From: an uncultured Clostridia bacterium | GTDB lineage: Bacteria; Bacillota; Clostridia; Christensenellales; Borkfalkiaceae | Length of the DNA: 13,540 nt | NCBI GenBank assembly: GCA_934273135.1 | Contig: CAKQSU010000010.1 | Coordinates: 1-13,540, forward strand | Direction: 5' to 3' | Shown: piece after piece, positions 1-8,819 of the stretch | Layout: each line of letters starts with the position of its first letter | Numbering within the stretch: position 1 is the stretch's first letter | Made by a program: the position numbers and the translations under genes | The notes under the pieces: model-generated | Seen by the model: only the letters and a program-made list of their open reading frames with translations | The model's database searches: none | What the model was told of the DNA's origin: nothing

Positions 1-354
1 TCCGTGACCTTTGGTGGTACCGATAACGTCTACTTTGTCGCCCGCGGCGAAAACTTCGCAAGTAACTTCCTTACCTACTTCGTACTTCGCAGCGTCGTCT
101 AAGCGGAATTCGCGAAGGTACTTCTGCGGCTCTACGCCCGCCTTCTTGAATTGACCCGCTTCGGGCTTGTTGATGTTCTTCTCCGCGGTCTTGCCGAAAC
201 CCATTTTTACTGCGGAATAGCCGTCGCGTTCGACGGTCTTAATCTGCACGACGGGGCAAGGACCCGCTTCGATTACGGTGACCGGGATTACTTTTCCGTC
301 TGCGGAAAAGATCTGCGTCATACCTAACTTTTTTCCAATGATTGCTTTATTCAT
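1..354 (-). CDS. rplC: 50S ribosomal protein L3, N-terminal part (cut by window edge)
   Basis: The first 118 residues of ribosomal protein L3 are visible; the remaining roughly 90 residues lie beyond base 1. L3 is an early-assembling 23S rRNA binding protein near the peptidyl transferase centre. The N-terminus [16 protein letters not shown] is the classic L3 start. It is followed by the [16 protein letters not shown] strand and the GFG segment typical of the family. The ATG is at 354, with a strong GGAGGTGA ribosome binding site about 11-18 nt upstream. It lies 38 nt downstream of rpsJ on the same strand, the conserved S10-operon order, and is most likely co-transcribed from the promoter at 1025-1053. 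Identification is near certain; the 3' end cannot be seen. Confidence 0.97.
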
Positions 355-4512: not shown

Positions 4513-5205
4513 ATGCAATATTCAAGCGAAGTCGAAAACATGCTTTGCGTCGCAAAAGGACCCAAGCATGAACCGTCGCCTATCCCCGAGGAAGGCAAAT
4601 GGATATTCGCTAAGGAAATCAAAGACATTTCCGGCTTTACGCACGGCGTGGGCTGGTGCGCTCCGCAGCAAGGCGCGTGCAAACTGTCTTTAAACATCAA
4701 AGAGGGCGTAATCGAAGAAGCCCTCGTCGAGACGATCGGCTGCTCCGGTATGACTCACTCCGCCGCTATGGCTTCTGAAATCTTACCCGGCAAAACCATT
4801 CTCGAAGCTTTGAACAGCGACCTTGTTTGCGACGCTATCAACACCGCTATGAGAGAACTCTTTTTACAGATCGTCTACGGCAGAAGCCAGTCGGCTTTCT
4901 CCGACAACGGCTTGGTCGTCGGCGCGGGGCTTGAAGACCTCGGTAAAGGGCTTCGTTCCCAGGTCGGCACTATGTACGGCACAAAAGCCAAAGGCGTAAG
5001 ATATCTCGAAATGGCTGAAGGCTACGTAACCCGCCTCGCCCTCGACGAAGATATGCAAGTCATCGGCTACGAATTCGTTTCTCTCGGCAAGATGACCGAC
5101 TTCATCAAGAAAGGCTTGGAACCCAACGAAGCTTACAAAAAAGCTATGGGGCATTACGGCAGATTCGATAACGCGTTTAAGTATATCGACCCGCGTAAAG
5201 AATAA
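4513..5205 (+). CDS. NifU/IscU-like iron-sulfur scaffold homologue
   Basis: 230-residue protein whose residues 45-120 resemble the NifU N-terminal/IscU fold. GACKLSLNIKEGVIEEALV (54-72) corresponds to the first strand pair. GCSGM (76-80) corresponds to the second cysteine loop, and the helix after it begins THSAAMASE. Cysteines are at 12, 49, 56, 77 and 106; C56 and C77 fit the first two IscU ligands. The third IscU cysteine (in an HCS-type context) is not evident: the equivalent region reads YGRSQSAFS. The C-terminal extension of about 100 residues, with LRSQVGTMYGTKAKGVRYLEM- and GYEFVSLGKM-type stretches, is not part of canonical IscU. It is followed 17 nt later by a GGGtGRT-family gene. 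Iron-sulfur handling is inferred from homology; the actual cofactor and client are unknown. Confidence 0.75.
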   Translation: MQYSSEVENMLCVAKGPKHEPSPIPEEGKWIFAKEIKDISGFTHGVGWCAPQQGACKLSLNIKEGVIEEALVETIGCSGMTHSAAMASEILPGKTILEALNSDLVCDAINTAMRELFLQIVYGRSQSAFSDNGLVVGAGLEDLGKGLRSQVGTMYGTKAKGVRYLEMAEGYVTRLALDEDMQVIGYEFVSLGKMTDFIKKGLEPNEAYKKAMGHYGRFDNAFKYIDPRKE

Positions 5206-5222
5206 TAGAGGAGGAGTTTAAA

Positions 5223-6224
5223 ATGGCTTTATTCGAAGGTTATGAAAGAAGGATTGACAAAATCAACGGCGTCCTTAAAGAATACGGTATCTCCTCTATA
5301 GAGGAATGCAAAGACATCTGCCTCGCTCACGGCGTCGATTGCGACAAAATCGTGAGAGGCACTCAGCCTATCTGCTTTGAAAACGCGGTTTGGGCATACT
5401 ACGCGGGCGCGGCTATCGCCATAAAGAGCGGAGCTAAAAAGGCTTCCGACGCCGCAGCCGCAATCGGCAAAGGCTTGCAGGCTTTCTGCATCGTAGGCTC
5501 CGTTGCCGAAAACAGAAAAGTAGGCTTAGGTCACGGCAACCTCGCCTCCATGCTTTTAAACGACGACACCGATTGCTTCTGCTTCCTCGCCGGTCACGAA
5601 TCTTTCGCTGCGGCGGAAGGCGCAATCTCTATAGCTCTTAACGCAAACAAGGTCCGCGGCAAAGAACTCCGCGTTATCTTAAACGGTCTCGGTAAAGACG
5701 CCGCTATGATAATTTCTCGTATCAACGGCTTTACTTACGTCGAAACGGAATTCGACCCCTATTCGGAAACGGTTAAAGTCGTTTACGAAAAGGCTTATTC
5801 CGACGGTCCGAGAGCGAAAGTCAAATGCTACGGCGCGGATAACGTTCCCGAAGGCGTTGCTATCATGAAAATGGAAAACGTCGGCGTATCCATCACGGGT
5901 AACTCCACTAACCCGACGAGATTCCAGCACCCCGTTGCAGGCACTTACAAAAAATGGTGCGTCGAAAACGGCAAAAAGTATTTCTCGGTTGCTTCGGGCG
6001 GCGGCACGGGCAGAACGCTCCACCCCGACAACATGGCGGCAGGTCCGTCCAGCTACGGCATGACCGACACTATGGGCAGAATGCACTCCGACGCGCAGTT
6101 CGCAGGCTCCTCTTCCGTTCCCGCCCACGTCGAAATGATGGGGCTTATCGGTATGGGCAACAACCCGATGGTCGGCGCAACGGTTGCCGTGGCGGTTGCC
6201 GTTGAAGAAGGCTTCAAAAAGTAA
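5223..6224 (+). CDS. GGGtGRT family protein (function unknown)
   Basis: 333-residue protein with the exact motif GGGTGRT at 259-265, the name-giving signature of the GGGtGRT family (Pfam PF14057), which has no assigned function. Other visible stretches are the Gly/His-rich GLGHGN (101-106), CFCFLAGHESFAAAEGA (118-134), TGNSTNPTRFQHPVAGTY (225-242) and a glycine-rich C-terminus. Cysteines are at 29, 40, 51, 89, 118, 120, 202 and 246. No signal peptide or membrane segment is seen, so it is likely cytosolic. A very strong GAGGAGGAG site precedes the ATG. Codons favour C-ending choices (AAC, GGC, ATC, TAC), as in highly expressed genes. Linkage to the NifU-like gene suggests a metallocluster-dependent or cluster-delivering role, which is inference only. 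Confidence 0.85.
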   Translation: MALFEGYERRIDKINGVLKEYGISSIEECKDICLAHGVDCDKIVRGTQPICFENAVWAYYAGAAIAIKSGAKKASDAAAAIGKGLQAFCIVGSVAENRKVGLGHGNLASMLLNDDTDCFCFLAGHESFAAAEGAISIALNANKVRGKELRVILNGLGKDAAMIISRINGFTYVETEFDPYSETVKVVYEKAYSDGPRAKVKCYGADNVPEGVAIMKMENVGVSITGNSTNPTRFQHPVAGTYKKWCVENGKKYFSVASGGGTGRTLHPDNMAAGPSSYGMTDTMGRMHSDAQFAGSSSVPAHVEMMGLIGMGNNPMVGATVAVAVAVEEGFKK

Positions 6225-6276
6225 AAACCCGCCTTTTTGCGATTTGCGGACATATTCCGCCTAAAACTCTAAAACT

Positions 6277-6309
6277 AAATCCGTCGCTTTTTCCGCGGCG
6301 GATTTTTTT
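6277..6309 (+). terminator. Intrinsic terminator after the GGGtGRT gene
   Basis: AAATCCGTCGC (6277-6287) pairs with GCGGCGGATTT (6295-6305) over a 7-nt loop with one G-U pair. The T run continues to 6309. In the minus direction the stem is followed by TTTAGTTTT, so it may also stop the ATPase gene that converges from the right. Confidence 0.85.
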
Positions 6310-6350
6310 GCGTGATTTTTCGTGGGACTTATCTGAATGATAAAAATAAA

Positions 6351-7679
6351 TTACAGAAAAATCGACATATAAACGGGTAAATAAACGACATCTTGTTCTT
6401 TTGTGAAATCCTTCGTATAAACAAGATATTTTTTTGAAATGCGGCTTGAAAACTTCTTACAAAATTCATCGAGCGATACGTGCGATTTATATCCCGAAGA
6501 CTTAACTTCAACAGGACAAATTTTATCGTTTTTCGCGAGCAAAAAGTCTATTTCGTAATTGTGTTTCGACGTTTCGTTAAGCCATGTGTGATAAAATAAT
6601 TCATTCCCGTTAGAAACAAGTATTTGCGCTATAACGTTCTCATACAAGTAACCGAGATTAGCCGAAAGCTTATCGTTTAACAGCTTTTCATAAATTACGT
6701 TCTCGGTAAAATCCTTATCCTTGAACATAAGAGTCGTAAAAAGCCCCGTATCGCAAACAAACAATTTAAATTGAGATAGATTTATGTTTGACGACAACCC
6801 TGCGTTCGGGTCATTCGCGTGATAAGAAACAAGAACCGTTTTTGAACTCTTCATTTCGGCAATAAGACCGAGAATATCGTCCGCTCTTGTGTTTTCCACA
6901 ACTCCGGACACTTGATATCTCGATGCATTTGCCGCAAGTTGCGCCGGTATTGCATTAAACAACGTAGATATACGCCCCGTCGAATCTATTTTCATGAAGT
7001 CGGAATCGTATAGCTCTAATATATCTCTCTTGACAAGGTCGACCTTTCTAAAATTATTTGTCGCGATATATTCGTTAACCGCTTGCGGCATTCCGCCCAC
7101 CAACATATATAACCTGAAATTGCGCAACATTATTCTATTCACATCGTTGCCGAGCGAAACACCCGTTTCATAAAACTTTTTTAATAGCGGTACGGTAACG
7201 TTATCCCCTATCGCCCACAAAAACTCTTCATAATCCATAGGGTACATATTTATTTTGCGTTCTTCGCTCGGGATAAGAATATCTTTGACGTTTCTTTTTA
7301 TGCTGATAAGCGAACCCGTCTCGATATAATCGTATCTACCGTCCTTGACAAGGATTTTTATCGCTTGACGGGCAAGCGGACAAAACTGTATTTCATCGAA
7401 TATAATCAAAGACTTTCTTGTAACTAAATCAACCTTGTATATAAGTTGCAACTGAAGGAAAAAATAATTAAGGTCGCTCATATCGCGAAACAAATCTTTA
7501 ACGGATTGAGCGGCAAAAGCAAAATCAATCAAAATATAACTTTCGTATTCGCTCTTGGCAAACTCTTCCGCTATAGTGGATTTTCCTATTCGCCTTGCAC
7601 CCTCTATCAAAAGAGCGGTGCTTCCTTTTGATTCGTTTTTCCAATCCACGAGTTTTTTGTAAATCTTACGTTTAAACAT
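6351..7679 (-). CDS. AAA-type ATPase with DUF4143 nuclease-like C-terminus
   Basis: 442-residue protein of the large AAA_14/DUF4143 group of prokaryotic ATPases, whose biological role is unresolved. The N-terminal P-loop domain has Walker A GARRIGKST (27-35) and Walker B LIIFDEIQ (91-98). A sensor-like TGS follows at 121-123. The characteristic GGMPQAV is at 195-201. The C-terminal DUF4143 half ends in a PD-(D/E)XK-like core: E346, D378 in YEIDFLL, and EVK at 391-393. The ATG at 7679 is preferred over an upstream in-frame start because a GGGAGGAG site lies 8 nt before it. The gene is clearly richer in A/T codons than its neighbours and lies between duplicated terminator sequences, both suggesting acquisition by transfer. 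Its promoter is overlaid by direct repeats. Confidence 0.88.
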   Translation of the reverse strand: MFKRKIYKKLVDWKNESKGSTALLIEGARRIGKSTIAEEFAKSEYESYILIDFAFAAQSVKDLFRDMSDLNYFFLQLQLIYKVDLVTRKSLIIFDEIQFCPLARQAIKILVKDGRYDYIETGSLISIKRNVKDILIPSEERKINMYPMDYEEFLWAIGDNVTVPLLKKFYETGVSLGNDVNRIMLRNFRLYMLVGGMPQAVNEYIATNNFRKVDLVKRDILELYDSDFMKIDSTGRISTLFNAIPAQLAANASRYQVSGVVENTRADDILGLIAEMKSSKTVLVSYHANDPNAGLSSNINLSQFKLFVCDTGLFTTLMFKDKDFTENVIYEKLLNDKLSANLGYLYENVIAQILVSNGNELFYHTWLNETSKHNYEIDFLLAKNDKICPVEVKSSGYKSHVSLDEFCKKFSSRISKKYLVYTKDFTKEQDVVYLPVYMSIFL

Positions 7680-7717
7680 TTCAAAAACTCCTCCCGCAAA
7701 ATTTTTTTCGGCAAAAA

Positions 7718-7799
7718 ACCGCAAATCCGCAAAATGTTTTTTGCACTATTACCGCAAATCCGCAAATTCTTTTTTATATTATAACCGCAAATCCGCAAA
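7718..7799. repeat. Three 16-bp direct repeats at exact 33-bp spacing (candidate operator)
   Basis: ACCGCAAATCCGCAAA occurs identically at 7718-7733, 7751-7766 and 7784-7799. Each unit is itself an imperfect tandem of CCGCAAA. The 17-nt spacers differ in sequence. The third copy fills the -35/-10 spacer of the ATPase promoter, and the other two lie in its 5' untranslated region. The constant spacing of about three helical turns puts all copies on the same DNA face, as expected for cooperative binding of a repressor. Confidence 0.85.
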
Positions 7800-7806
7800 A
7801 TGTCAA
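7778..7806 (-). promoter_or_regulatory. Perfect-consensus promoter of the ATPase gene
   Basis: On the minus strand TTGACA (7801-7806), a 17-nt spacer and TATAAT (7778-7783) match the sigma-A consensus at every position. The predicted start is near 7771, giving a leader of about 92 nt. The spacer is occupied by one of the three direct repeats. A factor bound there would exclude RNA polymerase, so the promoter is probably silent until released. Confidence 0.85.
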
Positions 7807-7834
7807 ACGAAAATTTATATAAAATATACTGATT

Positions 7835-7891
7835 GTAGGGATTGCATTCTTCATCACTAATTATTTTTGCGGCAATGAATGCAATCCTTAC
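7835..7891. repeat. 57-bp palindromic element (15-bp inverted repeat)
   Basis: GTAGGGATTGCATTC (7835-7849) is the inverse complement of GAATGCAATCCTTAC (7877-7891) except for one G-U position, around a 27-nt A/T-rich loop. It has no T run on either side and no gene ends next to it, so it does not look like a terminator. It could be a small REP/MITE-like element or a structured RNA. A TATACT at 7825-7830 would place a plus-strand start at its left edge, but the -35 is poor. Confidence 0.6.
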
Positions 7892-7945
7892 CCTTTGTTT
7901 CTAAGGATAAAAATTTCGTAAACAAGCCGTCAAACCGCATAGCAA

Positions 7946-7972
7946 GCTTTTTCCGCGGCGGATTTTTTGCGT
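7946..7972 (+). repeat. Duplicated right half of the GGGtGRT terminator
   Basis: 27 bp here match 6286-6313 except for one missing T in the T run. A preceding CCGTC (7928-7932) also matches the left copy but is separated by a 14-nt insertion. No plus-strand gene ends upstream, so there is nothing obvious to terminate. The two copies bracket the ATPase gene and its promoter. The rest of 7680-8063 holds the ATPase promoter and repeats, the palindrome and the promoter of the next gene; no further coding sequence is seen. Confidence 0.7.
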
Positions 7973-7999
7973 TCTTTTTTTGTTTCCTTTTTCTTTCGA

Positions 8000-8028
8000 T
8001 TGACTGTTGTTTATCTTTATGTTAATAT
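8000..8028 (+). promoter_or_regulatory. Promoter of the seven-helix membrane protein gene
   Basis: TTGACT (8000-8005), a 17-nt spacer and TAATAT (8023-8028) predict a start near 8035, 29 nt before the chosen ATG. This argues against an in-frame ATG at 8007, which lies inside the promoter. Confidence 0.7.
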
Positions 8029-8063
8029 TGTTGCATAATCAAAACAATACACGAGGCGGCGGT

Positions 8064-8819
8064 ATGGAGATAATCGCGGCAAGGAATTTCAACCTTGCGT
8101 ATATAATTCTTGACAGCATATTTTTGCTTGTATTCGCGGGGCTTTTAATCTACAAAAAGCGCAGACTTACTCTTTTATGGGGCTTGTTCGGCGGTATACT
8201 TTACTTTGCCGTCGATTACGGAATATTCCACCTTTTGACTCACTCCCGCTCGATAACGGGCGGAAGCATGTTTTGGGTGCTTTTGTGGATGAGTATGAGC
8301 TACGGATTCACGAACTTTGCCTGGATTTGGCTTGCCTTAAAGCGTGACGAATACCTTAAAGAATGGTCTTTTTTAATATTCGTATGGTGGTTGTCCTGCC
8401 CCATTCTTTCAAGAACGATTCCTTCGGCGGAAATACACATCGAGCGGACAACGGGAGCATACCACGGCGTTATGGGAGCGATACTCTTTGTTTCGTATCT
8501 CGCGGCGATAATCTACAACTTTACGCAGAGCGACAAGTCAACGAGGTTCAATATTCTTTGGCTGTTTATAATAGGTGTTCTCGCTCAATTCGGTTGGGAA
8601 TTCGCGCTTCTTGTCGGCGGGATACGAAGCGACGGATTTACCGTCGAGCAAAAACTGATAACGCTTTTCGTCAACAGCCTTATCGAAACTAATTTGGGGC
8701 TTCCCGCGATATATCTTATATATCTTGCCGTCACAAGCAAAATCAAAGAGGACTTATCCGAAGAAAACAAAACGATTAAAGAACGCTTGCGAGAAAACAA
8801 TTCGCAAAAATTCGTATAA
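8064..8819 (+). CDS. Unrecognised seven-helix membrane protein
   Basis: 251 residues, which I do not recognise as a known family. Hydrophobic stretches suggest seven transmembrane helices at about 10-30, 36-56, 68-92, 101-117, 134-153, 163-187 and 198-224. A charged C-terminal tail (225-251) probably lies in the cytosol. Tryptophans are frequent in helices 3, 4 and 6. Polar or charged residues inside or at the edge of membrane segments include D51, H56, N84 and E179, which could matter for ligand or ion binding. The ATG at 8064 is chosen for its GAGG site 7 nt upstream and the promoter position. It is monocistronic, with its own promoter and a strong terminator overlapping the stop codon. A sensor or transporter role would be a guess. 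Confidence 0.75.
   Translation: MEIIAARNFNLAYIILDSIFLLVFAGLLIYKKRRLTLLWGLFGGILYFAVDYGIFHLLTHSRSITGGSMFWVLLWMSMSYGFTNFAWIWLALKRDEYLKEWSFLIFVWWLSCPILSRTIPSAEIHIERTTGAYHGVMGAILFVSYLAAIIYNFTQSDKSTRFNILWLFIIGVLAQFGWEFALLVGGIRSDGFTVEQKLITLFVNSLIETNLGLPAIYLIYLAVTSKIKEDLSEENKTIKERLRENNSQKFV

Follow-up and report, generated by a model that had tools for sequence, protein, structure and literature searches.

The 13,540-nt stretch of DNA analyzed here (hereafter the window) carries a minus-strand gene for a 442-residue AAA_14/DUF4143 ATPase, preceded by a promoter over which lies an array of direct repeats (Table 1). The protein matched Pfam AAA_14 with 78.1 bits (cut-off 27) and DUF4143 with 61 bits (cut-off 28.1), and PADLOC assigned it to PDC-S01 (329 bits), with PDLC04786 matched over residues 1-439 of 442 (E 8.3e-99). 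Its predicted domains are an AAA core (1-145), a helical lid (148-235), a winged helix (~236-308) and a PD-(D/E)XK-like domain (~311-442). Walker A, Walker B, lid and winged helix are all present in the family, as in the NBD of STAND/archaeal ATPases, and the predicted C-terminal domain has the core alpha-beta fold of PD-(D/E)XK enzymes and a conserved acidic/lysine motif, with E347, D378 and K393 invariant and E391 nearly invariant among 87 sequences. We take these four residues to be the PD-(D/E)XK motif, going by the usual motif residues and by strand order. A PDB sequence search with the family profile gave a best match of only E 0.14. Classical STAND proteins carry a C-terminal repeat sensor; in the C-terminal model, which was computed for the PDC-S01 family only, no repeat domain is seen and the fold is nuclease-like. 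The window protein shares its NBD-lid-winged helix order with STAND/archaeal ATPases and Orc1/Cdc6 and differs from them in having a nuclease-like C-terminal part.

Passages of a 2026 survey describe PDC-S01 as an ATPase fused to PD-(D/E)XK and as a phage defence candidate that is not validated, and rank it as the fourth commonest defence across prokaryotes, with 9986 archaeal and 29,494 bacterial instances (PMC12988326). The window protein is of the same family, and those passages of the survey contain no mention of an operator array or of regulation. A defence or toxin-antitoxin label for the window gene is putative, coming only from the PADLOC candidate name. Gene and array together have a G+C content of 37.6%, against 46.0% for the window and 52.1 and 47.3% for the neighbours, which is consistent with horizontal gain. 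A membrane-protein-like neighbour (8064-8816) has no family match. In a search for an empty site, relatives of the downstream membrane-protein gene were present in 3 of the 291 genomes covered from the class of genome G001; none of the four loci fetched, with flanks of ~1.5 kb, holds another window neighbour. Positions 4513-6224 contain a gene with a weak NifU/IscU match (below cut-offs), then a GGGtGRT-family gene (PF14057, 636 bits).

The array consists of three identical 16-bp copies of ACCGCAAATCCGCAAA, which read TTTGCGGATTTGCGGT on the minus strand and follow each other at exactly 33 bp, and of a fourth partial unit, CCGCAAAA; TRF reports the whole as a single 33-bp array at 7694-7801. 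The 15-mer core has 3 matches in the window at <=2 mismatches and no further copy, against 0.42 matches expected, with 1 of 200 shuffles reaching 3. Comparison with homologues showed the 16-mer to be part of a ~20-bp unit. The promoter on which the array sits scores 12/12 (TTGACA, 17 nt, TATAAT) and is the best of 9 promoter-like matches in 6000-8200, where 5.9 are expected. Sequence and TRF thereby bear out what the preliminary description had reported: the three exactly spaced copies, the perfect-consensus promoter and the placement of one copy in its spacer and two in the untranslated leader. It had also stated that no separate regulator gene is adjacent, and none was recognized among the larger ORFs, of which the 8064-8816 neighbour is without a family match. 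A 15-bp inverted repeat (7835-7849 / 7877-7891, 93% complementary, 27-nt gap) lies just upstream of the promoter. In viral contigs, a pattern search for two window units 10-30 nt apart gave 0 matches.

Table 1 Gene, repeats and expression signals at the array (positions in the window)
Feature	Position	Strand	Details
AAA_14/DUF4143 ATPase gene	6351..7679	-	442 aa, ATG 7679-7677; PADLOC PDC-S01
Shine-Dalgarno GGAGGAG	7688..7694	-	read from sequence
Half copy TTTTGCGG	7694..7701	-	in register with the 33-bp period; adjoins Shine-Dalgarno
Repeat 3	7718..7733	-	5' leader, 33 bp from repeat 2
Repeat 2	7751..7766	-	5' leader, 33 bp from repeat 1
-10 hexamer TATAAT	7778..7783	-	promoter scan
Repeat 1 (first in gene orientation)	7784..7799	-	occupies 16 of 17 bases between the -35 and -10 hexamers
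-35 hexamer TTGACA	7801..7806	-	promoter scan

Repeats spaced about 33 bp apart upstream of homologous genes

We searched for such arrays upstream of homologues with a lag test, in which the best ungapped 18-nt self-match of the upstream 200 nt at lags of 18-60 is compared with shuffles and called significant at p<=0.05. A profile from 14 close relatives found at least 520 relatives in genome contigs, whose best 80 (56-76% identity) were kept, and 12 in viral contigs. This first sample combined the window, the best 80 of at least 520 relatives and the viral loci, less two loci whose upstream DNA was too short; 70 of its 91 regions were significant: 65 at lag 33, two at 32 and one each at 31, 34 and 51. 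For a second sample we searched 299 genomes from the family of G003 and 16 from the order of G001, which supplied 30 and 5 loci, and fetched 40 more to reach 75. With three loci lacking an intact gene by the finder, 68 of 72 were significant, and their lags were 33 in 57 cases, 34 in five, 32 in one and some other value in five, two of the loci being repeats of first-sample loci (L182 of L009, L210 of L001). The third sample drew 50 loci, a few of them duplicates of first-sample loci, from the 301 genomes searched in the family of G009; 43 were significant, with a lag of 33 in 33 loci, 32 in five, 34 in four and 30 in one. Ten of 59 plasmid matches were inspected (25-72% identity), and seven, from Agathobacter, Segatella, Collinsella, Fusobacterium, Criblamydia, Vescimonas and Acinetobacter, had p<=0.05 at lag 32 or 33; the Glaesserella locus had lag 33 at p=0.088, and the lag test found no repeat at the Phocaeicola and Vibrio loci.

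Pooling these 223 regions, the ten plasmid loci included, left 202 non-redundant ones with the window among them and no archaeal member. A significant repeat was present in 169, at 32-34 bp in 161 and at exactly 33 bp in 142, and the lag test found none in the other 33. The phased repeats that the preliminary description had proposed looking for upstream of AAA_14/DUF4143 homologues, and whose absence it had named as a refutation, are therefore common. Among other genes of the first-sample loci, used as a control, 25 of 323 passed, with scattered lags; four of these were at 33, two of them AAA_14/DUF4143 paralogues (L020, L073) and two second arrays of the locus's own unit behind the ATPase gene (L043, L072). 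The repeat period may depend slightly on unit sequence. Units of the ATTTGGTGGAWAnnGnCA type are often spaced by 32 bp (L022, L263, L264, L271, L285, L287) or 31 bp (L035); units of this type at L275, L278 and L279 are nevertheless 33 bp apart.

Unit diversity and covariation with the encoded protein

The aligned units have the consensus AAATTTkSGGATTTkNGNNA, in which the 5' A/T-rich part is conserved and the core and 3' part are variable. Across 133 loci of the >=54% identity clade we counted 125 different 20-mer consensus units, which group into 78 clusters when <=2 mismatches of 17 are allowed and into 52 when <=3 are, with common units among close relatives. Diversity also extends to single genomes. 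Two genomes have 30 and 28 DUF4143 matches; of 20 places fetched per genome, 38 of 40 had a usable gene, and repeats were significant in 22 of these 38 (L142 and L154 already belonging to the first-sample count). The lag was 33 in 12 of them, 32 in four, 34 in one, 40 in three and 23 in two, the lag test being not significant in the other 16. By eye, the units differ among the paralogues of one genome. The arrays at 40 bp (with partly palindromic units) or 23 bp, found at L158, L159, L160 and L131, L132, perhaps represent subfamilies with another protomer geometry.

We then asked where individual units occur, using whole-genome searches with three units across six genomes. Of the six matches to the L043 unit (<=3 mismatches) in its own genome, five surround its own gene; a second genome has four, each directly upstream of the DUF4143 paralogue L262, which has a related unit, and a third genome has one. 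The L072 unit (<=2 mismatches) has four matches in its own genome, every one of them near its own gene, and one in another genome, and both occurrences of the L034 unit (<=3 mismatches) are at its own gene. Within their own genomes, these three units are thus almost exclusively located at their own genes.

To assess covariation of unit and protein, we related pairwise unit distance to pairwise protein distance within windows of 20 residues, with the remainder of the protein as a control variable. In the first set (77 loci), correlations peaked at residues 301-330 and 356-385, with a maximum of 0.29 against 0.154 in 500 permutations. Here and below, label permutation models phylogeny incompletely, and the scans took in 85 windows x four site partitions. 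A register-free version reproduced these peaks in the first set and did not replicate them in 67 later, mostly more divergent loci, which had their peaks at 116-160 and 261-280. When the comparison was confined to the >=54% clade, the 57 loci added to it gave a peak at 351-390 (0.37 vs. a permutation maximum of 0.20), and all 133 loci one at 356-380 (0.27 vs. 0.109). With control DNA from positions -40..-21 of the same loci the peaks vanished (-0.02, 0.03), and with positions -20..-1 they were weak (0.11, 0.10; largest value 0.16).

Because some new loci repeated old ones, we redid the analysis at <=90% identity within and between sets, leaving 68 and 40 non-overlapping loci (300 permutations). 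Site positions 1-6 covaried with residues 381-410 in both sets (0.42 and 0.40; permutation maxima 0.29 and 0.38), as did positions 7-12 with residues 351-385 (0.27 and 0.34; maxima 0.17 and 0.28), an unrelated window, 206-225, also passing in the second set (0.33). Positions 13-20 covaried with the winged helix (246-275) in the first set (0.32 vs. 0.21) and in the pool (0.26 vs. a maximum of 0.16), and fell below the permutation maximum in the second set (0.25 vs. 0.33). Window 301-320, at the top in the first set, was outside the top seven in the second. The residues tied most closely to the unit are 371, 318, 368 and 370. A residue-by-residue mutual information analysis of the 77 loci was set aside, being noisy and topped by near-invariant columns. 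By this covariation, the AAA/DUF4143 protein, which the preliminary description had named as a candidate binder, is the best candidate.

Transfer, promoter phase and other readings of the array

Array and gene also share their limits of homology. In 60 of 83 nucleotide-similar pairs (>=78% identity), homology ends between -215 and -60 relative to the gene start and between -60 and +70 relative to the last codon, with median limits of -128 and +3.5. Among the remaining 23 pairs, six are one locus fetched twice, and most others have longer common flanks. When the 60 pairs were screened for additional colinear homology, one was flagged (L064/L067, through a stretch far away); the screen overlooked L299/L300, a pair that is homologous in its left flank and that we excluded as evidence for a sharp left limit. 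The clearest case is L194/L195, 99.3% identical from -132 to +65 in a single match with no homology beyond; as judged from this alignment, the pair shows a recent transfer of array and gene alone, and by eye no target-site duplication is present. Of 86 loci, eight have a second array of the locus's own unit, of one or more units in the same orientation, no more than ~450 nt beyond the end of the ATPase gene (L014, L031, L043, L049, L065, L072, L075, L078), mostly without a promoter box by eye. Behind the second array of L072 is a short ORF with a sub-threshold Y1_Tnp match. An insertion-sequence-like end, TGTCTACTTTTCTTGACTGSTACA, occurs upstream of arrays in different hosts, as an exact pattern at L016, L059, L203 and L204 and as variants, by eye, at L032, L194, L219 and L313.

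These limits raise the possibility that the array is the end of a mobile unit or a recombination site, recognized and perhaps nicked by the nuclease-like domain and used by the cassette to move, with transcriptional control a by-product. The usual extent of homology, which begins shortly before the array and stops at the end of the gene, the L194/L195 match and the second arrays all speak for such an end. Against it, the search used found no second array in 78 of the 86 loci, the common stretch encodes only the ATPase, and in pairs of 78-90% identity the limits may be due in part to selection acting on gene and operator; the fixed phase of the repeats to the -35/-10 or -7 box, described below, is moreover hard to explain without transcription. 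We regard this reading as unlikely as a full account, and operator and mobility roles may coexist.

The phase to the promoter was analyzed in the >=54% clade (133 loci). The count took in boxes close to repeats, and grouping was by box rather than by taxon, so the result lies in the fixed offset. In 67 loci, a TAnnTTTG sequence, which we take to be the Bacteroidota -7 box, lies within 45 nt of a repeat start, at an offset of 26-28 nt in 56 of them (27 nt in 43). In 37 loci a sigma-70-like site lies inside the array, with the -10 at 17-19 nt in 27; in a further 8 the only such site is outside the array, and the other 21 lack a recognized promoter box. Among the 67 -7-box loci, 60 have the promoter at the final repeat, leaving the remaining copies upstream and untranscribed; in the sigma-70 group the promoter-bearing unit can be the first, middle or last, and therefore an element acting at the transcript level cannot be the common theme. 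One repeat in fixed phase to the core promoter, with the others extending downstream or upstream, argues for a DNA operator.

The upstream copies of those 60 loci occupy positions where activators sit, and a protein-bound array might accordingly activate the promoter or hold it poised. The window and several Clostridia loci (L001, L004 and L007, for example) instead have copies in the spacer and leader, as is typical of repression, and the full-consensus window promoter would need no activation. As a general function, activation seems quite improbable to us; in place of repression it is possible chiefly where most units sit upstream of the promoter.

We give very little credence to a device in the 5' leader RNA, be it an attenuator, a translational operator, a small-RNA target or a leader peptide with an 11-codon period. 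Two and a half window copies do lie in the leader and 33 is divisible by three, but folding of the window leader is no better than that of shuffles (z -0.49) and Rfam has zero matches within the window. A meaning for the 11-codon period that the preliminary description had noted is likewise not supported, and the leader peptide is rejected, because spacings of 31, 32 and 34 bp occur and because 60 of the 67 -7-type loci have their arrays at the promoter and further upstream. Binding by a host regulator encoded elsewhere, formally conceivable since most regulators are encoded in trans, is highly improbable given that units differ, by eye, between paralogues of one genome, that each of the three units searched for is nearly confined to its own gene, and that unit sequence tracks segments of the adjacent protein.

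A private operator as the proposed reading

We consider it likely that the array is a private operator of its own ATPase gene, in which protein-bound ~20-bp units, a 33-bp protomer geometry, autorepression and transfer as a cassette go together. From the covariation and the privacy of the units we strongly infer that the protein binds its own array. Each ~20-bp unit would be an asymmetric site for one protomer of the encoded AAA+ ATPase, with the winged helix reading the 3' part of the unit (positions 13-20) and the nuclease-like domain reading the core (7-12), mainly via a hairpin around residues 367-372, and also the 5' A/T-rich part (1-6). The 33-bp spacing would result from neighbouring protomers assembling side by side on DNA in a fixed geometry. 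As one unit overlaps the core promoter, the bound array would exclude RNA polymerase and the gene would be autorepressed. The preliminary description had the operators masking the promoter; occlusion fits the fixed core-promoter phase, and autorepression by the window-type ATPase is, at moderate confidence, the most likely effect of binding. A putative trigger, such as phage infection, ATP state or an invading target, would release or redirect the protein. Array and gene would move jointly as a ~1.5-kb cassette; because they travel together, each copy would keep its own specificity, and paralogues could coexist with little cross-regulation.

A more speculative extension, which we hold to be doubtful, is a self-addressed lock carried by a huge class of such single-gene cassettes. 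Here the nuclease fold and winged helix would read the private 20-bp unit colinearly, and the filament on the array would be a resting state that keeps the nuclease safe on self DNA; release by competing phage DNA or a change of nucleotide would both de-repress the gene and free the nuclease, and the array would also mark the end of the cassette during transfer.

The closest comparison is RptR, described in passages of PMC12255303 as a separate small regulator of defence islands with 9-bp repeats containing a conserved palindrome, TAGCTA, and a repressor array of three direct repeats. The window array resembles that of RptR in being a direct-repeat array for a proposed repressor; unlike there (PMC12255303), the candidate reader is the NTPase-nuclease itself, the repeats have a 33-bp period, and their sequence differs between genes. 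Compared with other PD-(D/E)XK nucleases (McrC, Can2, Card1, EndoMS, Hjc, restriction enzymes), the domain here seems also to read its own promoter. Among the matches listed for the open PMC literature, as distinct from subscription papers and preprints, no description of these promoter repeats was found.

For the family, the array offers a predicted DNA ligand for each member that can be read from its own promoter, making binding, oligomeric geometry (33 bp), specificity and control testable. The covariation also points to a natural protein-DNA recognition code in a nuclease fold, one that exists in many natural variants. Private operators would also explain how up to ~30 DUF4143 genes are found in one genome.
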